Positions 2,772 through 19,306 of a stretch of 36,738 bases of DNA are shown piece by piece. The stretch's first letter is position 1. The number at the start of each line of letters is the position of its first letter. The translations under genes and the position numbers were made by a program. The DNA comes from a virus. The notes beneath the pieces are model-generated. The model did no database searches. It saw only the letters and a list, made by a program, of their open reading frames with translations, and had not been told where the DNA came from. The stretch lies in the IMG/VR virus record IMGVR_UViG_3300035180_000276, positions 1 to 36,738 of that record. The stretch is one strand, 5' to 3'.

Positions 2772-4163
2772 ATGCTCGGCTTTTCGCCCCTTGGTGATCT
2801 TGCCCTTGCGGACGATACGGCTGGCCCATCTGTCCCGATTACCGGCACTGTAACGGAAACGCTGGCGGCATCGGAAACGCAGTCTCAGACCGTTGTCACC
2901 GCGTCCAATATCCAGAGCCTCGGTACGCTGGGCCTGACCGGCACGTCCGTCAACTCCGCCACCTTCGCTTTCACGACTGTCACAACCGGCCTAGCGGCGG
3001 GCGACTTCGCTATCTTTACCTTCTCCATCGGAAACCTCGGCACGGTCGACGGCGCTACCAACGATCACCTATCCATGTCCGGCGGCACCGGAACGTGGAC
3101 GAAGCTGGGCGAGTGGACTGATAGCCAAGGCGCGGCCGGCAGCGGCGTTGTCGTATCCGCGTGGCTATTCGAGGCGACGGGCGCGAACGCTATCGGCACC
3201 ACCATGACCCTCACGCTGGCTTCGGCCCGCGTGGATAAGGTCGTAACCGGATGGGCGTTCAGCAAGGCGGTCGGATATTCCATCATCCTCGACCCCCAGC
3301 CGGCAACCAACCCGATCGGCAATAACCTTACCGGAACCGACTTCGGATCGCAGTCGTTCAGCAGCCTGACCCAGCGAGAGCATCTGTTCTTCATGGCCGG
3401 CGCCAAGAAGGGCAACTTTACCGGCACGCTCACCCCGTCGTCCGGCTTCTCGGCCATAGATGCGGGGCGCAGCCGGAACAACGCATCCGCGCGCTACGTC
3501 GCCGGGGAATTCGATATCGTCACCGCTACCGGCGCGACCTCCAGCCCGGCCGAGGCCGATAGCGGGCCCACGGCGGCCCTATTTATTGCCCTGCTGCCGC
3601 AGGCCGCCGGAATTTCTGCCGCAATCACCGAGGCAGCGACCGCAGCGGACGCGCCAGACGCCACGATTACGACGGGCGGGGCATCTGCTGTCACCGAGGC
3701 GGGCAGCGCCATCGAAGCATCCAGCGCGGCTCTGATAACCGCAGCCGCTGCAGCAGAGGCAGGAACCGCCAGCGATACGGCATCGGTCACGGCGATTTTG
3801 GCGGCAAGCCGGACAGAGAACGGCTTCGCCATCGATATCAAATCGGCGCAGGTCGATTTTCAGGCAACGGCCAGCGAAATTGGAACCGCCACCGATGCCG
3901 AGGCGGCAACGGCAACCTATGCCGTCGGTCGTGTTGAGGCGGGTGCGGCGACAGATAGCGCCACAGCAACGGGTGGCGCTGTTCCCCTCACGCCGGGAAC
4001 GCCCATCATGGGCGTCTGGCCGATGCCGGTCATCGCGGGCGCATGGCCGATGCCGGTCATCGCGGGCATCTGGCCGATGCCGATCATAGCGGGCGCATGG
4101 CTGCAACCATCGATTACCGGTCAATGGCCGCAGCAAAATATCACGGGAGATTGGGCCGAATGA
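2772..4163 (+). CDS. Tail fibre-like protein with Trp nonapeptide repeats
   Basis: A strong AAAGGAGG site precedes the ATG at 2772. The product has 463 residues. Residues 1-275 form a Thr/Ser/Gly-rich beta-type domain. Residues about 276-400 hold loosely repeated units of the type ITEAATAADAPDATIT and EAGSAIEAS. The C-terminal 50 residues are five nine-residue units beginning with Trp (WPMPVIAGA and variants). The architecture of a globular start plus repetitive shaft plus short-period C-terminal repeat fits a tail fibre. The stop overlaps the next ATG. Confidence 0.6.
   Translation: MLGFSPLGDLALADDTAGPSVPITGTVTETLAASETQSQTVVTASNIQSLGTLGLTGTSVNSATFAFTTVTTGLAAGDFAIFTFSIGNLGTVDGATNDHLSMSGGTGTWTKLGEWTDSQGAAGSGVVVSAWLFEATGANAIGTTMTLTLASARVDKVVTGWAFSKAVGYSIILDPQPATNPIGNNLTGTDFGSQSFSSLTQREHLFFMAGAKKGNFTGTLTPSSGFSAIDAGRSRNNASARYVAGEFDIVTATGATSSPAEADSGPTAALFIALLPQAAGISAAITEAATAADAPDATITTGGASAVTEAGSAIEASSAALITAAAAAEAGTASDTASVTAILAASRTENGFAIDIKSAQVDFQATASEIGTATDAEAATATYAVGRVEAGAATDSATATGGAVPLTPGTPIMGVWPMPVIAGAWPMPVIAGIWPMPIIAGAWLQPSITGQWPQQNITGDWAE
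4017..4151 (+). repeat. Five 27-bp tandem units encoding W-nonapeptides
   Basis: TGG codons occur exactly 27 bases apart at 4017, 4044, 4071, 4098, 4125 and 4152. The first three units are nearly identical; the last two have diverged (WLQPSITGQ, WPQQNITGD). Each unit encodes nine residues starting with Trp. The repeat is coding and in frame within the fibre-like gene. Confidence 0.9.
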
Positions 4164-4564
4164 CCATCATCACTTGGGACAACGACGGGCTGAAACTGAC
4201 GACAACAATCCCTCTGGGGACCAATCCGAAAACCGGGCAAATCTATCCGGCCACAACGCTGGTCGGAAAGACGTTGACGGCCTTTCTTGGCGTCATCGCG
4301 CGCGACGGGACGGTTTCTGGATCGGTCGGCGCAGCAACCGTGACATCGACCGAAGCGCTGGTGACGCAAGCGCAATCCGATGTCGCTGCCCTGCTGAACC
4401 AGGACTTGCCCGCAGGACTTCTGCTTGGCACGATTACGGCCCTATGGACGCCTGGCGCTACGCTTTTCGGCATGAAGCGGGTGCAATTCGTCGTCAATAT
4501 TCCGGGCGACAAACCGTACACGATTGCCGATCAGGATGTTCAAATTCTGGCCTCGCTGGGCTGA
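4160..4564 (+). CDS. Hypothetical protein after fibre gene
   Basis: A 134-residue protein starting MTIITWDNDGLKLTTTIPLG. The start overlaps the fibre stop by ATGA and the end overlaps the next start by TGATG. The sequence looks like two or three beta-hairpins with a short helical part (EALVTQAQSDVAALLNQ). No family is recognised. The position between a fibre gene and the lysis cassette fits a virion-associated or fibre-assembly protein. Confidence 0.55.
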   Translation: MTIITWDNDGLKLTTTIPLGTNPKTGQIYPATTLVGKTLTAFLGVIARDGTVSGSVGAATVTSTEALVTQAQSDVAALLNQDLPAGLLLGTITALWTPGATLFGMKRVQFVVNIPGDKPYTIADQDVQILASLG

Positions 4565-5751: not shown

Positions 5752-6122
5752 CCCGCAGCGCCCATCTGCTGACCGCCTGTGCGCTTCTCGCCCTTGCCGC
5801 GTGTTCCCCAGCCCTGAAACTGATCGGTGGCTTGGCAGGGCATTCTGGCGTGTCTGCTAACGTGCAGGCCGGAGCCGTCAACTCGCAGACCCTCGGCACC
5901 ACGGACGCATCCTCGCAGGCCGTCAGCCGTTCCACGGTCGGAACGGTCCACCAGAGCCGCGACGTTAGCCAAGTGCAGGCGCAGAACGTCGGCAAGGTGA
6001 CTGTCAATCAGGTGTCGCCGTGGATGATCATCGCGCTGATTTCCGCGCTGTTCCTCGATAGCCCGATGCGATGGCCAGGGGAAATCGCGACGATGTTCAA
6101 GCGGAAGCCCGTCGCCAAGTGA
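5748..6122 (+). CDS. Spanin-like lysis lipoprotein
   Basis: The start overlaps the holin stop by ATGA. The 124-residue product begins with a signal peptide ending in a lipobox (LAAC, Cys19). It then has VSANVQAGAVNSQTLG and a Ser/Thr/Gln-rich stretch. A hydrophobic segment (WMIIALISALFLDSPM, about residues 95-110) precedes a basic C-terminus. Phage lysis proteins with an NVQAG...NSQT motif and a C-terminal membrane helix occur near endolysins and are treated as Rz-like or spanin-like. An outer-membrane disruption role is inferred. Confidence 0.6.
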   Translation: MTRSAHLLTACALLALAACSPALKLIGGLAGHSGVSANVQAGAVNSQTLGTTDASSQAVSRSTVGTVHQSRDVSQVQAQNVGKVTVNQVSPWMIIALISALFLDSPMRWPGEIATMFKRKPVAK

Positions 6123-6171
6123 AGACTCGTTCCCATGCCTCCATTGTGGCGCGACAAGTGTGCTGTTTGAA

Positions 6172-6191
6172 TTGGTCAGGCACCTGATCAA
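6172..6191. terminator. Hairpin between convergent late and accessory operons
   Basis: TTGGTCAGG and CCTGATCAA form a 9-bp inverted repeat (one G-T pair) around a two-base centre. It sits in the 147-base gap where the late operon (plus) meets the accessory operon (minus). There is no strong T tract on either side, so it is a hairpin at the right place for transcript ends rather than a textbook intrinsic terminator. I see no gene in 6123-6269. Confidence 0.45.
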
Positions 6192-6269
6192 CCGTCACAT
6201 TACACCACGCTGCGAACATTTTCATCGCAAGCAAGTCTCTGGTTGCCCAAATCAGTTCCGGTGCCTAAC

Positions 6270-6962
6270 TCATTTCATGCTCCCCAATTCGGTCTCGACC
6301 AGCGTGAGGAAGTGGTTGATCAGGTGATCCGCTGCTGCCTCCGCCGCAGCCGCCTCCACCTCCGCCGCCCTCGCCCCAGCCGATACCCACACCGCCACCG
6401 CCGCCCACGCCGCCGCCTCCGCCTCCGCCGCCGCCTCCGCTGCCACCCACGCCGCCACTGCCGCCCACGCCGCCGCCTCCGCCTCCGCCTCCACCCACGC
6501 CACCCGCGCCGCATCGTTCATCGCGGCACTCGCCTCATCGCCAGCAAGCAGCGCACCGGAAATCGCCTCGGACGCCGCAACAACAGCGGGCCAATATGGC
6601 GCATCCGCAGGTGTAACTTTCGCCGCCGCCGCAAGTGCGCTGATCGCACATTCAGCCCGGAACAAGCGGCTGATCTTGGCCCATTGTTCATCCGTCAGAA
6701 CCGACCACCGGCTTTGCGCCATGGCATACCGCGTCACAAATTCCGGCCAGCGCGCTTCCGTTCCGGCGTCATCAATCCACAGCGTCAGATCGGCGACCCA
6801 CTGCGGCATCAAATGCGCCGGGCAACCTTCCGTCGATTGCGCGCCGGGAACCAAGGCGGCATACAGGCAAGCCGTATCCCGGCCTTTGTCATCGTACCCG
6901 GTCCATGCGTTGCGGATCAGTGTGCCTTCTTCAAGACGTTGCAGAATTTGGTTCATTGTCAT
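6270..6962 (-). CDS. Ala-rich accessory protein, last gene of minus operon
   Basis: The ATG at 6962 follows AGAGGA at good spacing and overlaps the previous small frame by ATGA. The 230-residue product has an ordinary N-terminal part (LQRLEEGTLIRNAWTGYDDK; CPAHLMPQWVADLTLWIDD; WPEFVTRYAMAQSRW). The Ala-rich C-terminal half repeats AEAEAAAWAAVA and ends DHLINHFLTLVETELGSMK. The Ala/Glu/Trp repeat should be helical. No function is recognised. Confidence 0.75.
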   Translation of the reverse strand: MTMNQILQRLEEGTLIRNAWTGYDDKGRDTACLYAALVPGAQSTEGCPAHLMPQWVADLTLWIDDAGTEARWPEFVTRYAMAQSRWSVLTDEQWAKISRLFRAECAISALAAAAKVTPADAPYWPAVVAASEAISGALLAGDEASAAMNDAARVAWVEAEAEAAAWAAVAAWVAAEAAAEAEAAAWAAVAVWVSAGARAAEVEAAAAEAAADHLINHFLTLVETELGSMK

Positions 6963-8008: not shown

Positions 8009-8188
8009 TCACCACTCCCTCGGGCAAATATTGTAGACATTCGTTGCCCGCATGGCGATGCGGTGGGCCTCTTCCAGCGGCGGAAACCCATAGCCGATGG
8101 CTTTCAGTTCGGCCTCGGTCAGTTTGCACGGCAGCGGTGATGGTTCGGAATCGCCCAGCCACATGGTGATCGTGCGGAGAACGTCCAT
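8009..8188 (-). CDS. Small accessory protein (59 aa), paralogous to start of gene 7075-7308
   Basis: The ATG at 8188 overlaps the preceding stop (TAATG). The product begins MDVLRTITMWLGDSEP and contains CKLTEAELKAIGYGFPPL, shared with the gene beyond the aaRS-like gene. It then ends EEAHRIAMRATNVYNICPREW with no membrane helix. It lies directly upstream of the aaRS-like gene in the same transcript, so the two may act together. No known domain. Confidence 0.65.
   Translation of the reverse strand: MDVLRTITMWLGDSEPSPLPCKLTEAELKAIGYGFPPLEEAHRIAMRATNVYNICPREW
8083..8116. repeat. 34-bp perfect direct repeat, copy 2
   Basis: Second copy of the repeat at 7203-7236. Recombination between the copies would remove the aaRS-like gene and fuse the two paralogues in frame, because the repeat has the same reading phase in both genes. 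Confidence 0.9.
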
Positions 8189-8370
8189 TATTTGGCTTCC
8201 ACTTGGCGCAGCACCAGGTCGGTAAATTCCGACTCGTCGCCCTCGCCGCGCTGATCATCGAAACACTCGCGGCAGAGCAGATCGTCGGCGGTCCAGCCGT
8301 CGTTGTTGCGGACGCGCAATTCAACGCCGGTCGCGCCGCAGCTATCGCAGGCGATAAAATGGCCTATCAC
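8188..8370 (-). CDS. Small zinc-ribbon-like protein
   Basis: A GTG at 8370 overlaps the previous stop (GTGA) and is preferred over a longer frame that would overlap the upstream gene widely. The 60-residue product has two Cys pairs: CDSC near residues 8-11 and CREC near 34-37, with 22 residues between them. This is a zinc-ribbon layout. The C-terminus is acidic then helical. It may bind nucleic acid or protein; no family is named. Confidence 0.6.
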   Translation of the reverse strand: MIGHFIACDSCGATGVELRVRNNDGWTADDLLCRECFDDQRGEGDESEFTDLVLRQVEAK

Positions 8371-8576: not shown

Positions 8577-8836
8577 TCCTGGGTCAGAAAACAGTTGAGG
8601 GTTTCAGCGTCGAATTGCGGGGTCCACGGGTGCCAACCCGGCACGTTAACTCCCATAGCGGTCAGTTGCCGCAGGCAATGGTTGCGCTGGCCGTAAGCCG
8701 CGTCGGCGTCCTCAATGTCACGCTTGCGGTCGTTTGGATCGGCGTACGCCGCCCGCGCTTCATAGCGCTGCGCTTTGGCGTGCTGGACACGCGCCTCGTG
8801 CAGCAGATCGGCGGCGATGTTGGAGTGGTCGGTCAT
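8573..8836 (-). CDS. Small hypothetical accessory protein (87 aa)
   Basis: The ATG at 8836 overlaps the stop of the octad-repeat gene (ATGA). The product MTDHSNIAADLLHEARVQH... is mainly helical and charged for 60 residues, then has GVNVPGWHPWTPQFD and a short end. No recognised domain. Context: third type of protein in the accessory operon. Confidence 0.55.
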   Translation of the reverse strand: MTDHSNIAADLLHEARVQHAKAQRYEARAAYADPNDRKRDIEDADAAYGQRNHCLRQLTAMGVNVPGWHPWTPQFDAETLNCFLTQE

Positions 8837-9450
8837 GCCGGCACCAGTTTTCCGCCGACTGCGCGATAGGCGACATTCGGCAGGATGCCGTCCTCGCCCA
8901 CGTATCCAATTGCGATCCGATAGCGCAAGCCATCCCACCATTTGATACTCAGGATGGACCATGAGCCCCCGGTGAGTGTGGACCTGTTGCCCCCGGTAAG
9001 GATGGACCCGTAGCCCCCGGTGAGGGTAGCCCCCTCGCCTCCGGCGAGGATGGACCCGTAGCCCCCGGTGAGGGTGGACCCCGCGCCCCCAGTGAGGATG
9101 GCCCCGATCACCGCGCCCCGCGCTCCGAGGCGGATGATTTCTGTCGTGGCGTCAAGCCTCGAACCGCAGAACACGACCTCGCCACGCGGAAACTTGACCT
9201 TGCCTTCCAGGGCAATCCAATCCTCAACTGCGACCACCAGCCAAACCGCATCATATGACCAGTCGGCCAGAAATCCATCACCGTAGCCCCACAGAAACCC
9301 ATGTAGGCCGTTTCCGCATTCGGGCGTGGGTTGCCAATCATGGCATTCTACCATCCCGGATCGGGGACAGACAAAACCGCCATAGCTGGTCATGCCGGCT
9401 GCGCAGGTGCGCAGGACATAGGCGGCAGATTTGGGCTTGCGTTCGGTCAT
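8833..9450 (-). CDS. Protein with ice-nucleation-like octapeptide repeats (DUF7666-like N-terminus)
   Basis: The ATG at 9450 is chosen because it overlaps the previous stop (ATGA); an upstream TTG in frame lies inside the previous gene. The product has 205 residues. Residues 10-100 (YGGFVCPRSGMVECHDWQP, then ECGNGLHGF and WLVVAVEDWIALEGKVKFP) resemble the small phage domain DUF7666. Residues 113-168 are seven octads of the form GGYGSILT / GGNRSTLT. The alternation YGS then xxS/A gives the 16-residue period of bacterial ice-nucleation proteins, whose consensus is AGYGSTxT. The end is VGEDGILPNVAYRAVGG. A beta-solenoid is expected; function unknown. Confidence 0.7.
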   Translation of the reverse strand: MTERKPKSAAYVLRTCAAGMTSYGGFVCPRSGMVECHDWQPTPECGNGLHGFLWGYGDGFLADWSYDAVWLVVAVEDWIALEGKVKFPRGEVVFCGSRLDATTEIIRLGARGAVIGAILTGGAGSTLTGGYGSILAGGEGATLTGGYGSILTGGNRSTLTGGSWSILSIKWWDGLRYRIAIGYVGEDGILPNVAYRAVGGKLVPA

Positions 9451-9809
9451 TCTTGCACCCAATCCGACAGATCGCAGGGCCGGGACGAGGCCGGGATTTC
9501 GTCAATGTCGCCCTGCAGGCCGGAACAGTTTCCCCGCAGGCCGGTGCAGTTGCCCCGCAGGCCAGTGCATTTACCCCGCAGGCCGGAACAGTCGCCCCGC
9601 AGGTCGGTGCAGTCACCCTGCAGACCGGAACAGTCGCCCCGCAGGCCGGAGCATTTGCCCCATAGGCCGAAGCATTTGCCCCACAGGCCGGTGCAGTTTC
9701 CGCGCAGGTCGGTACAGTCTCCGGTCATATCCGGGTTCGGCCCCATCACCATCACGCCATCGGCGAAGTGATACAGGGCGGGCGCGGTGCGCGTCAGTGG
9801 CTTGGTCAT
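9447..9809 (-). CDS. Cys-rich heptapeptide-repeat protein C (11 units)
   Basis: The ATG at 9809 overlaps the previous stop (ATGA). Product: 120 residues = 28-residue N-cap (MTKPLTRTAPALYHF...) + 11 heptads of the form xGDC(S/T)xL + 15-residue C-cap (PASSRPCDLSDWVQE). Cys and Leu recur every seven residues, so one Cys and one Leu column would stack in a solenoid. Two variant units carry Lys in place of Asp/Asn. It differs from pentapeptide-repeat proteins in period and in the Cys column. Function unknown. Confidence 0.75.
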   Translation of the reverse strand: MTKPLTRTAPALYHFADGVMVMGPNPDMTGDCTDLRGNCTGLWGKCFGLWGKCSGLRGDCSGLQGDCTDLRGDCSGLRGKCTGLRGNCTGLRGNCSGLQGDIDEIPASSRPCDLSDWVQE

Positions 9810-9873
9810 TCTTGCACCCAATCCGACAGATTGCAGGGCCGGGCGGACGCTGGGATAGCATCAATGTCGCCCC
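9786..9873. repeat. 88-bp perfect direct repeat, copy 1
   Basis: Bases 9786-9873 equal 10313-10400 without mismatch (offset 527). Each copy covers the 3' cap of one heptad-repeat gene, the ATGA junction and the first codons of the next gene. A similar but diverged junction lies at about 9440-9515. Confidence 0.95.
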
Positions 9874-10336
9874 ACAAGCCGGAACAGTTTCCCCGCAGGC
9901 CGGTGCAGTCGCCCCATAGGCCGGAGAAGTCGCCCCGCAGGTAGGTGCAGTATCCCCGCAGGAAGGTGCAGTTACCCCGCAGGAAGGTGCAGTCACCCCG
10001 CAGGAAGGTGCAGTCACCCCATATGTCAGAACAGTTGCCCCGCAGCCCGGCGAAGTCGCCCCGCAGCAAGGTACAGTTGCCTCGCAGGTCGGTGCAGTCG
10101 CCCCGCAGGCCGGAGCAGTTGCCCCGCAGTCCGGAGCAGTCGCCCCATATATCGGAACAGTCTCCCCACAGACCAGAGCAGTCGCCATACAGGCCGGTGC
10201 AATCGCCCCACAGGCCGGTGCAGTTGCCCCGCAGACCGGAACAGTCGCCGGTCATATCCGGGTTCGGCCCTGTCACCCTTTTATCAACGATGTAGTGATA
10301 CAGGGCGGGAGTGGTGCGCGTCAGTGGCTTGGTCAT
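9806..10336 (-). CDS. Cys-rich heptapeptide-repeat protein B (19 units)
   Basis: The ATG at 10336 overlaps the previous stop (ATGA). The 176 residues split as 28-residue N-cap, 19 heptads and 15-residue C-cap. The caps are nearly identical to those of protein A. Most units are (R/W)G(D/N)C(T/S)xL; a few replace Cys by Phe (GDFAGL, GDFSGL) or carry aromatic residues before Leu (CTFL, CTYL). Copy number is the main difference from its paralogues. It likely arose by tandem duplication. No catalytic motif and no signal peptide. Confidence 0.75.
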   Translation of the reverse strand: MTKPLTRTTPALYHYIVDKRVTGPNPDMTGDCSGLRGNCTGLWGDCTGLYGDCSGLWGDCSDIWGDCSGLRGNCSGLRGDCTDLRGNCTLLRGDFAGLRGNCSDIWGDCTFLRGDCTFLRGNCTFLRGYCTYLRGDFSGLWGDCTGLRGNCSGLWGDIDAIPASARPCNLSDWVQE

Positions 10337-10400
10337 TCTTGCACCCAATCCGACAGATTGCAGGGCCGGGCGGACGCTGGGATAGCATCAATGTCGCCCC
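10313..10400. repeat. 88-bp perfect direct repeat, copy 2
   Basis: Second copy of the 9786-9873 repeat, at the junction of proteins A and B. Exchange between copies would gain or lose one whole 527-bp gene unit in frame. Confidence 0.95.
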
Positions 10401-10800
10401 GCAGACCGGTGCAGTCGCCCCACAGGCCGGAGCAGTCGCCCCGCAGGTCCGTGCAGTTGCCCCGCAGACCGGTGCAGTCGCCCTTCAGGTAGGTGCAGTT
10501 ACCCCGCAGGAAGGTGCAGTCACCCCGCAGGTTGGTGCAGTCGCCCCATATGTCAGAACAGTTGCCCCACAGGCAGGAGACGTCGCCTTGCAGCAAGGTA
10601 CAGTTGCCCCGTAGGTTGGTGCAGTCGCCCCATAGGCCAGTGCAGTCGCCCCACAGGCCAGTGCAGTCGCCCCGTAGGTCGGTGCAGTCACCCAGCAGAC
10701 AGGAACAGTCGCCGGTGATATCCGGGTTTGGTCCCGCCACCCTTTTATCAACGATGTAGTGATACAGGGTGGGAGTGGTGCGCGTCAGTGGCTTAGTCAT
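10333..10800 (-). CDS. Cys-rich heptapeptide-repeat protein A (16 units), first gene of accessory operon
   Basis: Two in-frame ATGs exist (10806 and 10800). The one at 10800 is chosen because AAGGGGG stands six bases before it. Product: 155 residues = 28-residue N-cap (MTKPLTRTTPTLYHYIVDK...), 16 heptads and the C-cap PASARPCNLSDWVQE. One unit has Val for Cys (GDVSCL). A 21-base DNA period underlies the repeats. Being first in the transcript, it should be the best expressed of the family. Cytosolic, function unknown. Confidence 0.75.
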   Translation of the reverse strand: MTKPLTRTTPTLYHYIVDKRVAGPNPDITGDCSCLLGDCTDLRGDCTGLWGDCTGLWGDCTNLRGNCTLLQGDVSCLWGNCSDIWGDCTNLRGDCTFLRGNCTYLKGDCTGLRGNCTDLRGDCSGLWGDCTGLRGDIDAIPASARPCNLSDWVQE

Positions 10801-10830
10801 CTTCATCCCCCTTAGCGTCGTACCTTGGGG
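10801..10830 (-). promoter_or_regulatory. 5' leader hairpin covering the ribosome site of the accessory operon
   Basis: Read on the minus strand, the predicted transcript begins in a C run (CCCC-AAGG, from about 10830) and meets AAGGGGG just before the first start codon. The C run can pair with the G run of the ribosome site. This would make a small hairpin at the very 5' end that hides the site. Confidence 0.4.
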
Positions 10831-15508: not shown

Positions 15509-17551
15509 TTGGACCCAAAGATTTTGCTGACAGCCGATCTTGACGCTATTCGCCGCGACCTGTCGGTCATGGTTGCGCGTTGGCATGAACTTGCCGAACC
15601 CGTCATGCTGGAAATCCGCGCATTCGCAGAAAACAAGCAGCCTCAGATCGTCAAGTATTCTCCTGACATGTTGGACGATGCAGTCGAGCACTGCGCTAAC
15701 ATGAATCAACTTGGCTTCAATATCTACGCCGTCCGCAATCCGATCCGGCAAGCCTGCAAAGGCAGCGCGACCGACAAGGATATCGCCGCCAGCTTCTACC
15801 TTTGGGCAGACTGCGACGACGAGGTTGCCGCCGACAATGTGCGACGGTTCCCAGGGCCGAAGTGGACGATGGCCGTCATCACCGGCACCAAGCCAAGCAC
15901 TCGCGTCCATACCTATTGGGAACTGCAAGAGCCGTGCCGCGATCTGGACACTTGGAGGGCCATGCAGCAGACCATTGCCGCGTTCTTTGGCAGCGATGCC
16001 AGCGTAATCAACCCGTCTCGTATCATGCGCGTGGGCGGCACGATCAGCCACCCATTCGAGAAGAAGCGGGCGCGCGGCTATGTGCCGGAACTGGTACAGA
16101 TCAAGACGCGATTCCCAGATGCGCGTCAACCGGTGACGATGGATCAGATGGCGCGGGTGTTTGGGTCTAACACCATGGAAACTCCGGTCCAACTCCGTTC
16201 GGACTCCGCTGCCAGTTTCCAGATCGACACGGGCAGCGACCACAAGTCAGCATCGGACTACGCCGACATTCTGCGCCGCGCCCGCACCGACGGCGAGAAA
16301 CACATCGGCGTTCGCAGCCTGTCGGCCAGCTTGGCCGGGTCTGGCGTCCCACGGTCACTTGCCGAAGCCATCGTGCGAGAAGCTTGCCCGGTCTGGGATG
16401 CAGGCGTCGAGAAGCTGATCGAGAGCGCCTATGCGAAGTTCTTCCGACCACCAGCGGCCTACGCCCCAAACTTCGATCATGCGCCAGCGCCGACAGCTTC
16501 AGACCCAGACCCAACCGCAGGCGCATGGCGCGTCCAGAGAGCCGATGATTTTACCGCCGATTTCGTCGCTCCCGAATACATCATCGACGGCATTATCCAG
16601 CGCGGGCGCATCTACACACTGACCGCCCCAACGGGCAGCGGGAAAACCGCTGTCATGCTTTACGCGGCGACTTCCATCGCGACCGGCACCACCTTTTGCG
16701 AAAAGGAAGTTGAAGCCGGTGATGTGCTGTTCCTGGCCGGTGAGAACCCCGATGACGTTCGCGCCCGTGTCATCGCCACGATGGAATTCTACCAGGTCAA
16801 CCCGGCCAACTGTCGCCTTCATTTCATAGCAGGCACATTCTCGATCCGCGCTGATCTGGATCAGCTTCGGACGGAAGCCGCCAAACTACCGAATCTGATC
16901 CTTGTCGTTATCGACACCTTCGCCGCCTACTTCGACGGTGACGATGAGAACAGCAACGCCCAGGCGCTGGACTTCGCCCGCGTGGTTCGCAAGGTCGCAT
17001 CCTTCGACGCGAAGCCCGCCGTCATCATGCCGGCGCACCCGGTCAAGAATGCCACGCGCGGCAACCTGACGCCCAAGGGCGGGTCAAGCCTGCTGAACGA
17101 AATAGACGGCAACCTGACCCTATGGAACGAAGGCGGACTGCTGTCACTGCACTGGCAAGGCAAGTTTCGTGGCCCCGAATTTGAACCGATGACGTTTGAA
17201 CTCATGCGCCACGAAAGCGCGCTGATCTGTGACAACCAAGGCCGGGTCATGCCGACCATCCTAGCTAAGCCGGTCCTGCGGATGCGGGCGATGGAAATCG
17301 CAACGGCCAATCTCAGCCTTGAAGACAAGCTGCTTCTCAGCATCAAGCGCGAGCCGGAAATCTCCTATGCGCAGCGCGGCGTGAATGTAGGCTTGAACCA
17401 CCCGCAAAAGGTCAAGCGCGCTATTCAGAAGCTGGAACGCCAGAAGCTGGTGAAGCCGTTCCGCACAAATTGGGAACTCACCAAAGACGGCGAGCGCGCC
17501 TGCGAAATTATCGAGAACGGAGGGCATTTTGCTGCCGAAATCGACCCCTGA
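15509..17551 (+). CDS. Primase-helicase (RepB-type primase domain + RepA-like ATPase)
   Basis: A TTG start at 15509 is preceded by TAGGA; no better ATG keeps the whole N-terminal domain. The protein has 680 residues. Residues about 60-220 resemble RepB/prim-pol type primases (FYLWADCDD acidic pair; VHTYWELQEP; NPSRIMRVGGT). Residues about 345-560 form a RecA-like ATPase: Walker A APTGSGKT at 373-380, Walker B LILVVIDTF with Asp469, then PAVIMPAHPVKN. The end (LTKDGERACEII) looks like a winged helix. It should unwind and prime the phage genome. The iteron cluster begins at its stop codon. Confidence 0.85.
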   Translation: MDPKILLTADLDAIRRDLSVMVARWHELAEPVMLEIRAFAENKQPQIVKYSPDMLDDAVEHCANMNQLGFNIYAVRNPIRQACKGSATDKDIAASFYLWADCDDEVAADNVRRFPGPKWTMAVITGTKPSTRVHTYWELQEPCRDLDTWRAMQQTIAAFFGSDASVINPSRIMRVGGTISHPFEKKRARGYVPELVQIKTRFPDARQPVTMDQMARVFGSNTMETPVQLRSDSAASFQIDTGSDHKSASDYADILRRARTDGEKHIGVRSLSASLAGSGVPRSLAEAIVREACPVWDAGVEKLIESAYAKFFRPPAAYAPNFDHAPAPTASDPDPTAGAWRVQRADDFTADFVAPEYIIDGIIQRGRIYTLTAPTGSGKTAVMLYAATSIATGTTFCEKEVEAGDVLFLAGENPDDVRARVIATMEFYQVNPANCRLHFIAGTFSIRADLDQLRTEAAKLPNLILVVIDTFAAYFDGDDENSNAQALDFARVVRKVASFDAKPAVIMPAHPVKNATRGNLTPKGGSSLLNEIDGNLTLWNEGGLLSLHWQGKFRGPEFEPMTFELMRHESALICDNQGRVMPTILAKPVLRMRAMEIATANLSLEDKLLLSIKREPEISYAQRGVNVGLNHPQKVKRAIQKLERQKLVKPFRTNWELTKDGERACEIIENGGHFAAEIDP

Positions 17552-17760
17552 AAAGTGTGACGAAAAGTGTGACGGCGAAGGCCCGGCGTCACACGATCCG
17601 TCACACGTGTCACACCATGTGACGACTTGTGACGAAATCGCAGAAGCCATTGATGTTCAAAGACAAAAGGTGTGACGTATGTGTGACGACCAGTGTGAGA
17701 AACTCAATTCTGTCACAACCCCCCGTTTCTTAGAACGGGGTGTGTGTGATGAGTGTGAAA
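17551..17760. repeat. GTGTGACG iteron cluster, candidate replication origin
   Basis: Within 210 bases GTGTGACG occurs at 17555, 17567, 17670 and 17681, and its complement CGTCACAC at 17587 and 17599. Near matches are at 17609, 17617, 17627, 17693, 17711, 17744 and 17753. The first two lie in a 12-base direct repeat (AAAAGTGTGACG). A CCCCGTT/AACGGGG hairpin sits at 17721-17740. Iterons beside a replication gene are typical initiator-binding sites. Confidence 0.65.
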
Positions 17761-17777
17761 AGGACGGTGAAGTATGA
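17679..17777 (+). CDS. 32-codon Cys-rich frame inside iteron region
   Basis: MCDDQCEKLNSV... contains a CDDQC pair and a CDEC pair, a possible zinc knuckle, and ends in an ATGA overlap with the next gene. The exact overlap is the pattern seen for real genes in this genome, but the frame is made largely of iteron sequence (TGTGAC read as Cys-Asp). It may be coding, non-coding or both. Confidence 0.35.
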   Translation: MCDDQCEKLNSVTTPRFLERGVCDECEKDGEV

Positions 17778-18340
17778 CCGCACCGCATCGTCAAAAGAAA
17801 CACGACCGCCTGACCTACGGCTCACAGGTCACGCCGAAGGAAATCGCTTGTGACTTCGCCCTCGGCCCGCTTGATCGGGTGGCCATGGACATGGACCGCA
17901 TCTGGGGCGTCGACCGCCTGGTCGAATTGCAGACCCCAGCCGTCGCCGCCAAATACGGGGCGCGCATGGCCGAACTGAATGCGGCCATCGTCGCATCGGA
18001 CCCGGAGTCGACCGCCGCCGTCGTCGCCATCCTGATCGCCAACCTGCGGCGCATGGATGCCTTGGCGCGGGAAGCCGGGCACCAGCCGTTGCAACCCGAG
18101 GTCTGGACCTTCGACGTGGACGGCTTTCGCTTCGGCCTGATGCGCGAGGGCGGAGATTGGCCGGCCGCGCAAGCCGCCATGCCAGGTCTGGCGCTGTTCA
18201 GCCCGCGTGAGATTGCCAACGCGCTCAAAGCCTATCGCGGGCTGGTGGCAGACGCCAAACGCGCCTTCCCCGGCAGAGAAGCCAAGCCTCGCCAACGCAC
18301 AGAACTGGAGGAGAGCTTAAATGACGAAATCCCATACTGA
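17774..18340 (+). CDS. Hypothetical early protein (188 aa)
   Basis: The product starts MTAPHRQKKHDRLTYGSQ; a mostly helical middle (LVELQTPAVAAKYGARMAELNAAI split across helices) is followed by WTFDVDGFRFGLMREGGDW and a basic C-terminal stretch. I recognise no family. It overlaps the next gene by 20 bases, and its 3' end holds the ribosome site GGAGGAG of that gene, so the two are coupled. Confidence 0.65.
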   Translation: MTAPHRQKKHDRLTYGSQVTPKEIACDFALGPLDRVAMDMDRIWGVDRLVELQTPAVAAKYGARMAELNAAIVASDPESTAAVVAILIANLRRMDALAREAGHQPLQPEVWTFDVDGFRFGLMREGGDWPAAQAAMPGLALFSPREIANALKAYRGLVADAKRAFPGREAKPRQRTELEESLNDEIPY

Positions 18341-18701
18341 TCGGGGACCAGTCGAAATCGAATTTGAGGACCAAACCATACTTGCGCTGGCAAGTCAGGG
18401 TCGCAAAGACGACGCTTGCAAGCCGCGCATGGACCTGTTGCCGCCTGAATTGCTGATGGGCGTTTCCGAGGTGCTGACATACGGTGCGGCGAAGTATGCC
18501 CCGCGCAATTGGGAAAAAGGCATGTCTTGGGGCCGCGTGTTTGGTGCGCTCATGCGGCATATGTGGGCTTGGTGGGCCGGGCAGCATCTCGATCCTGAGA
18601 GCGGCTTGCCGCATCTGTACCATGCGGGCTGCTGCATCGCCTTTCTGATCGCCTATGAGGCCCGCCAGATCGGAAACGATGATCGGCAGGCAGCGCCATG
18701 A
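18321..18701 (+). CDS. dATP/dGTP diphosphohydrolase-like protein (DUF5664 type)
   Basis: A 126-residue helical protein. The sequence RMDLLPPELLMGVSEVLTYGAAKYAPRNWEKGMSW (in two parts) followed by HMWAWWAGQHLDPESG and LPHLYHAGCCIAFLI matches the DUF5664 fold, now linked to dATP/dGTP diphosphohydrolases of the MazG-like superfamily (MazZ type). Such enzymes change the nucleotide pool; in some phages they serve the 2-aminoadenine pathway together with PurZ. No PurZ-like gene is seen here, so pool control or anti-host action is more likely. Confidence 0.75.
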   Translation: MTKSHTDRGPVEIEFEDQTILALASQGRKDDACKPRMDLLPPELLMGVSEVLTYGAAKYAPRNWEKGMSWGRVFGALMRHMWAWWAGQHLDPESGLPHLYHAGCCIAFLIAYEARQIGNDDRQAAP

Positions 18702-19306
18702 CGGATCCGATCCGCAAAATCGACCGCGACAAACTGCTGGAGTTCGCGGCCAAGGGTATGACCCGCGCGCAAATGGCAGAGCATTTCAAATGTTCCAGGC
18801 AAGCCATCACCTTCGCATACGCCCGCACGCCGGAACTCCACCGCCAGAAATCGACACCCAAGGTTGATCAGGCCGAACTGATCCGGCTCTTGGCTTCCGG
18901 CATGACCCAAGCCGGCACCGCCCGGCATTTCGGATGCGCCGAAAGTACCATACACGGACACATCTCCCGCCTGCGCCGCGATGGTAAACTGCCGCCAAAC
19001 CCGACCGCACCTCCGCCCCGGAACGTCATGGCCTTCAGCATCGCGTCAGAGGCACCATACAGCGCGAAGTCGAGACTTACCGCTACCCACGTGGCCAAAA
19101 CGCAATCCGACGCTGTAGCGCGAAATTTTGCGGGTTTCTGCTCACCGTTTTTGTCCCGTCTCTGCGACGTGGCGCGCAAGGAACTTTACGACACGGGCGG
19201 GCGCTACGCCGATCTGAACGCATGGGCCGCGCGGCACGGCATCAAGAACCCGGTGCAATGGTGGCTGCAGCTCACCATGCCGGTCAGCAAGGGGAAACAG
19301 GGATGA
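18698..19306 (+). CDS. DNA-binding protein with two helix-turn-helix motifs
   Basis: The 202-residue product holds two similar N-terminal motifs: KGMTRAQMAEHFKCSRQAI (about 19-37) and SGMTQAGTARHFGCAESTI (about 67-85), each a helix-turn-helix of the resolvase/sigma-like kind. They are followed by a linker and a helical C-terminal domain (LSRLCDVARKELYDTGGRYADL split). It could be a late regulator. ATGA overlaps join it to its neighbours. Confidence 0.7.
   Translation: MTDPIRKIDRDKLLEFAAKGMTRAQMAEHFKCSRQAITFAYARTPELHRQKSTPKVDQAELIRLLASGMTQAGTARHFGCAESTIHGHISRLRRDGKLPPNPTAPPPRNVMAFSIASEAPYSAKSRLTATHVAKTQSDAVARNFAGFCSPFLSRLCDVARKELYDTGGRYADLNAWAARHGIKNPVQWWLQLTMPVSKGKQG

Follow-up and report, generated by a model that had tools for sequence, protein, structure and literature searches.

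What is the function of the short gap behind the primase-helicase gene in this viral DNA? The window, that is, the whole stretch analysed here, is a linear fragment of 36,738 nt (IMGVR_UViG_3300035180_000276) whose 5' end lies inside a gene. The gap (17552..17773, no strand assigned) extends for 222 bp from the stop of the primase-helicase gene (17551) to the ATG of the next open reading frame (ORF; 17774). It contains no open frame, and its anatomy is kept in relatives. We consider it quite likely, from sequence comparison, that this gap is the replication origin of the phage, bound by the upstream primase-helicase through the C-terminal winged helix of that protein.

The gap is filled with short repeats in both orientations. 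The octamer GTGTGACG occurs six times in the whole record, always within 17555-17688, where 1.41 copies would be expected in the record and the maximum in shuffled sequence was 5 (n=100). Four perfect copies are forward (17555, 17567, 17670, and 17681) and two are reverse (17587 and 17599). The counts of the shorter core are a more telling sign of concentration than the octamer: all seven GTGTGAC of the record and 10 of its 11 GTGTGA lie inside the gap (TGTGAC 10 of 27, TGTGA 13 of 49). The left iteron group (17555..17634, both orientations) holds the first two forward copies, the two reverse copies, and near copies at 17609 (reverse), 17618, and 17628 (both forward). A 12-bp tandem, AAAAGTGTGACG twice, is part of this group (17551-17574); an exact search of viral contigs with the 24-bp tandem gave no match. 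The right iteron group (17670..17758, both orientations) holds the other two perfect copies, with near copies at 17693, 17744, 17753 (all forward), and 17712 (reverse). Within it stands a hairpin, CCCCGTTT-CTTA-GAACGGGG, on the + strand (17721..17740). The two groups are separated by an AT-richer, iteron-free spacer (17635..17669; AT 64% against 49% for the region), which is a candidate DNA unwinding element and measures 43 bp between corresponding bases of the flanking iterons. A first-pass annotation of the DNA had reported six perfect octamers in these orientations, about seven near copies, a tandem, and a hairpin. The counts are exact, all six octamers fall in the gap, and the tandem and hairpin are both present.

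All six reading frames of the gap are interrupted by stops, so the gap is non-coding and protein coding does not explain the repeats. When the whole record was scored in 420-bp tiles, three other stretches equalled or exceeded the gap in short-repeat score (approximately 6100-6800, 9450-10300, and 10300-10800). These three are low-complexity protein-coding repeats.

Relatives of the locus were drawn from IMG/VR and from bacterial genomes, giving 88 distinct loci with a readable gene end and downstream DNA; further viral scans returned mostly contigs that had already been collected. To count as a cluster, a 7-bp word had to recur in both orientations within the 380 bp that follow the gene and to exceed the 99% level of shuffles. 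By this measure, 67 of the 88 relatives have repeats of 7-8 bp densely packed on both strands behind the gene (1.4% expected from shuffles). The position is the same and the word is not. A relative with 62% identity (L007) has GCGGAACA, and the words elsewhere include CTGACACA (L011), CCGTAACA (L012), CGGGACAAA (L019), CCGGACA (L016), TGGAACG (L010), TCAGACA (L025), CGATACGA (L066), CGCACGA (L076), and CGGGACAA. By eye, the word table contains approximately 40 different words. Aligned in a common register, they share only the backbone NNNNAC(A/G)N (A 83%, C 80%). Conserved protein sequence, which the first-pass annotation had named as one of two findings that would undo an origin, does not account for the repeats, given the closed frames. 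The phage family is widespread and, where the host is known, mostly alphaproteobacterial. Loci L054, L056-L059, L061, L024, L032, L155, and others carry the helicase gene and have no significant iteron cluster in the downstream 380 bp.

The layout is conserved across the differing words. Neighbouring iterons in the relatives stand 8-13 bp apart, close to one helical turn, and the spacer between the left and right groups is most often 43 bp. The spacer averages 0.59 in AT content and the region 0.49, and in 47 of 59 loci the spacer is the richer of the two. Two elements of an iteron origin are found here: multiple regularly spaced short repeats beside an initiator gene and, judged by base composition in the window and in the 59 loci, an AT-rich candidate unwinding element beside them. 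In the closer relatives, the first iterons of the right-hand group are also followed by a G+C-rich hairpin, whose loop is CTTA or TTTA. In the stem, compared across 18 loci, all eight pairs have changed on both sides. The covariation score is 0.56, compared with 0.27 in shuffles (none of 500 reached it), and it is lowered by sliding the partner strand; the alignment has slight register shifts, and these disfavour the structure. The initiator-binding origin suggested in the first-pass annotation is thus well supported by comparison, with position, spacing, AT-rich gap, and hairpin kept while the words are replaced.

The same anatomy is found in a cultured phage. Searches of GenBank phages found nothing closer than matches below 60% identity in the helicase core, and these led to Rhizobium phage 16-3 (DQ500118.1, L232). 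Its gene p101 is a homologue of the primase-helicase gene in the helicase region. After p101, at 4006-4390, CGTGACA occurs 15 times without mismatch, in both orientations, together with the hairpin CCCCCACACTCC-TTTA-GGAGTGGGGG. The order is that of the window, namely, a homologous helicase region, iterons, and a hairpin (here with a TTTA loop), but the word is another one. The DQ500118 record gives p101 no description beyond similarity to a RecA-family ATPase-like protein and leaves the iterons and hairpin unannotated. Neither iterons nor an origin are mentioned in a paper on AP-16-3, a close relative of 16-3; an earlier description in subscription journals is possible. Gordonia phage Evaa and the myovirus ctyzp037 have a RepA-like gene and no significant iteron cluster.

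The gene upstream of the gap (15509..17551, + strand) encodes 680 amino acids if the TTG start is assumed. Residues from about 1 to 220 (15509..16168, + strand) form a PrimPol-like AEP domain. The N-terminus matches the sequence of the AEP domain of cyanophage S-2L PrimPol (PDB ID: 6zp9) with E values of 1.8e-4 as a single sequence and 1.9e-5 as a profile, and its fold agrees with that domain at a TM score of 0.73 by target length. Residues from about 344 to 590 (16538..17278, + strand) form a RecA-fold ATPase domain of the hexameric-helicase type (Pfam AAA_25, E 4.6e-24), for which Foldseek returned the RecA cores of Rad51, RadA, and DnaB. RepA of RSF1010 belongs to this family of RecA-fold helicases. 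A Pfam search of the 680-aa protein returned AAA_25 only, and not the DUF927 or D5/Primase_Cterm helicases of the staphylococcal pathogenicity island (SaPI) type. The AlphaFold2 model (m71246e8c9b78; mean predicted local distance difference test score, pLDDT, 82.6) contains a C-terminal winged helix at residues 604-664 (17318..17500, + strand; block pLDDT 82-92). It is built of helices 604-614, 620-626, and 632-644 and wing strands 648-651 and 654-657. The third helix (17402..17440, + strand) is the predicted recognition helix. On this model, the chain looks like a primase, a helicase, and a DNA reader in one. In the relatives (L043-L088 and others), the N-terminal module varies by lineage, and the RecA-fold helicase, the winged helix, and the downstream iterons stay. 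Because of this pattern, the primase half of the homologous genes looks exchangeable.

We compared the similarity of iteron words with the similarity of each 15-column segment over the last 420 residues of the protein, after removal of helicase-core identity. Over 65 loci, the best segment is residues 630-646 (r 0.233), which coincides with the predicted recognition helix 632-644; the best value outside the winged helix is 0.163. In 1000 label permutations, 0.233 was reached in no segment. In the clade of the window itself (14 loci), the peak lies at residues 632-642 with r 0.545, the best value elsewhere is 0.371, and the maximum over all segments was matched in 7 of 2000 permutations. The recognition helix is again the strongest segment in the 31 loci that lack a 188-aa protein often encoded next to the gap. 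Among pairs with 65-85% core identity, the recognition helix is 66% identical when the word is the same and 30% identical when it differs, whereas the core is 76% and 72% identical, respectively. This covariation supports the primase-helicase as the probable iteron binder, one of the two candidates of the first-pass annotation.

Several observations weigh against this reading of the gap. The label permutations do not fully remove shared ancestry, and the comparison of segments within one protein is the better control. A scan of mutual information between residues and bases gave no significant code in the helix, and its top hits reflect lineage. We do not claim a recognition code, and pairings of residues and bases seen by eye are only suggestive. 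Methionine 635 occurs with A at motif column 11 in eight of eight cases from two distant lineages, and leucine occurs with G in four of four; this pairing is a lead only. About a quarter of the 88 relatives have no detectable cluster; their origin may be elsewhere or may consist of longer repeats. The cumulative GC skew, a check proposed at the outset, has its minimum near 20 kb. This is roughly consistent with an origin in the gap, but it does not fall exactly there, and the measure is too coarse to place an origin. Finally, in the 34 loci with the 188-aa protein, which are of mixed lineages and include some unalignable C-termini, the helix signal is gone (partial r 0.05), and the similarity of the 188-aa protein tracks the word instead (partial r 0.20).

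The last point bears on an alternative in which the iterons are an origin or operator read by another protein, most plausibly this 188-aa neighbour (17774..18340, + strand) or a helix-turn-helix (HTH) protein (18698-19306). The 188-aa protein adjoins the gap directly and is conserved beside the iterons in 34 of the 65 iteron-bearing loci; after it come a dGTP/dATP hydrolase-like protein and the HTH protein. However, it is missing from the other 31 iteron-bearing loci, in which the helix leads all segments. In the clade of the window, the 188-aa protein reaches a partial r of −0.11 and the helix one of 0.58, and the former has no match in Pfam or PHROG. The 188-aa protein is probably not the iteron reader; despite its correlation in the mixed set, it is not favoured in the clade of the window. 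The HTH protein, the other binder proposed by the first-pass annotation, occurs in only one of the 65 loci, the window itself, and was dropped as a general reader for want of conservation. Taken together, reading by another protein is unlikely.

It is similarly doubtful that the repeats are operators for transcriptional control by the primase-helicase or a repressor, with replication starting elsewhere. Initiators often autoregulate, and the genes on either side of the gap are co-directional, so the repeats could serve as operators as well as an origin. The words, though, are confined to one gap of the record, unlike genome-wide stoperators. It is hard to see what the AT-rich spacer and the covarying hairpin would do in an operator, and the gap is downstream of the gene of its own reader.

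We also think it improbable that the origin maintains an episomal, plasmid-like prophage, as had been raised from the repeats, a RepA-like ATPase, and the missing integrase. No tyrosine or serine recombinase was found in the window record, and to that extent the earlier statement stands. The absence is a weak sign, because the record, a linear fragment, starts inside a gene. A tyrosine integrase above the Pfam cut-off is present in 14 of 30 relatives' records, and no AAA_31 ParA was found in the window record (a fragment) or in any of these 30. In a Loktanella relative, the integrase is at the contig end; a further relative is chromosomal, being located 1.3 Mb into a large contig. The case that most favours an episome is Caenibius sp. 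WL plasmid p1 (NZ_CP081845.1, L235), in which 13 copies of TGCGGAA follow a related AEP-AAA gene at 8022-8275. This circular 38-kb record, named a plasmid, has terminase and capsid genes, but it too carries a tyrosine integrase; it may be either a phage-plasmid or an excised prophage. Given the integrases and the chromosomal relative, the iteron origin appears to be the usual one of a phage family that mostly integrates, and not a sign of episomal life.

That the repeats act in RNA, as a folded leader, in antitermination, or similarly, with the DNA words incidental, is very improbable: the + strand of the gap does fold more stably than 200 of 200 shuffles (z −4.2), but this is partly because repeats in two orientations fold by construction, the sole Rfam match of the gap is a chance one (E 0.83) that names no RNA family, a predicted DNA-binding helix varies along with the words, and neighbouring iterons stand about one helical turn of DNA apart.

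For an origin read by the primase-helicase itself, the following mechanism is suggested. Several copies of the protein would bind the short iterons through their C-terminal winged helices. Binding would load the RecA-fold helicase at the AT-richer spacer, where the strands would open, and the fused AEP primase would start DNA synthesis, possibly at the hairpin. With both functions in a single protein and a DNA word of only a few bases, the initiator and origin would drift together. Each phage lineage would then have a private word, much like an incompatibility group. On balance, we favour the view that initiator and origin are a rapidly re-specifying pair across the phage family, with approximately 40 words, one layout, and matching recognition helices.

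Parts of this arrangement are known from other replicons. The alpha protein of satellite phage P4 combines primase, helicase, and an iteron-binding domain and acts with ori and crr, which contain short repeats in both orientations. The fused protein, the two-orientation repeats, and the origin near the gene resemble the window; P4 differs in its SF3/D5-like helicase, its one repeat family, and its two separate cis regions. The oriV of RSF1010 has iterons, an AT-rich stretch, and the hairpins ssiA and ssiB, which are used for priming. The window shares with it a RepA-type (AAA_25) helicase, an AEP primase, iterons, an AT-rich stretch, and a hairpin, and we would guess by analogy that the hairpin is comparable to the ssi priming sites. 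RSF1010 (IncQ) has three separate proteins, the RepA helicase, the RepB' AEP primase, and the RepC initiator (PMC4538821), unlike the window, in which AAA_25, the AEP-like domain, and the winged helix are fused.

A parallel in the position of the iterons is with the SaPI Rep proteins and Cch2 of the staphylococcal cassette chromosome mec (SCCmec). These are described as self-loading initiator helicases of the DUF927 or D5/Primase_Cterm families, whose C-terminal domain reads short iterons directly downstream of their own gene (PMC7581432, citing Ubeda 2007). The position and the predicted winged helix in the window match such an arrangement, and the covariation agrees with a C-terminal reader. 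The window differs in its RecA-fold (AAA_25) helicase with a fused AEP primase and in iterons that change within a large family of phages.

That an initiator and its origin can change together is already known. In the PLE satellites of Vibrio cholerae, the initiator and origin change jointly, and a phage nuclease that copies the specificity of the initiator may select for the change (PMC8263062). The window would resemble PLE RepA-ori and ICP1 Odn in joint change that an enemy nuclease of this kind could drive. PLE RepA, however, is a RepA_N protein with no predicted helicase or primase, its iterons are semi-palindromic and approximately 30 bp long, and two replicon groups have been described (PMC8263062, PMC7145576). 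In geminiviruses, iterons of 5-6 nt vary among related viruses, each virus having those that fit its Rep (PMC12548392). The likeness to the window is in related viruses having different short iterons, here probably matched to the initiator; Rep, however, is a rolling-circle initiator of unrelated fold from plant single-stranded DNA viruses. The scale seen here, one layout with approximately 40 words, was not found described in the literature searched.

If this reading is correct, many unannotated phage origins, including that of 16-3, could be located from sequence by finding the end of an AAA_25 primase-helicase gene and inspecting the next 300 bp. The relatives would form a natural library of pairs of helix and word from which a protein-DNA recognition code might be read. 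The pressure behind the change of word, whether replicon incompatibility or enemies that copy the specificity of the initiator, would also become readable. Two questions would become testable, namely, how a winged helix changes its word and yet stays functional, and why related phages avoid having an origin word in common. As a compact module of one gene and its origin, the system could also supply mutually compatible laboratory replicons for Alphaproteobacteria.

Two of the repeat-rich stretches outside the gap lie in a set of minus-strand genes. Three overlapping tandem paralogous ORFs (9447-9821, 9806-10348, and 10333-10806) occupy 9447-10806 and contain short repeats of the C(T/S)xLxG(D/N) type. 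They have similar starts containing MTKPLTRT, end in DLSDWVQE or NLSDWVQE, and look like pentapeptide-like repeat proteins. Adjoining them on the same strand is an ORF at 8833-9462 with repeats of the GG(Y/E)GSxLTGG type.
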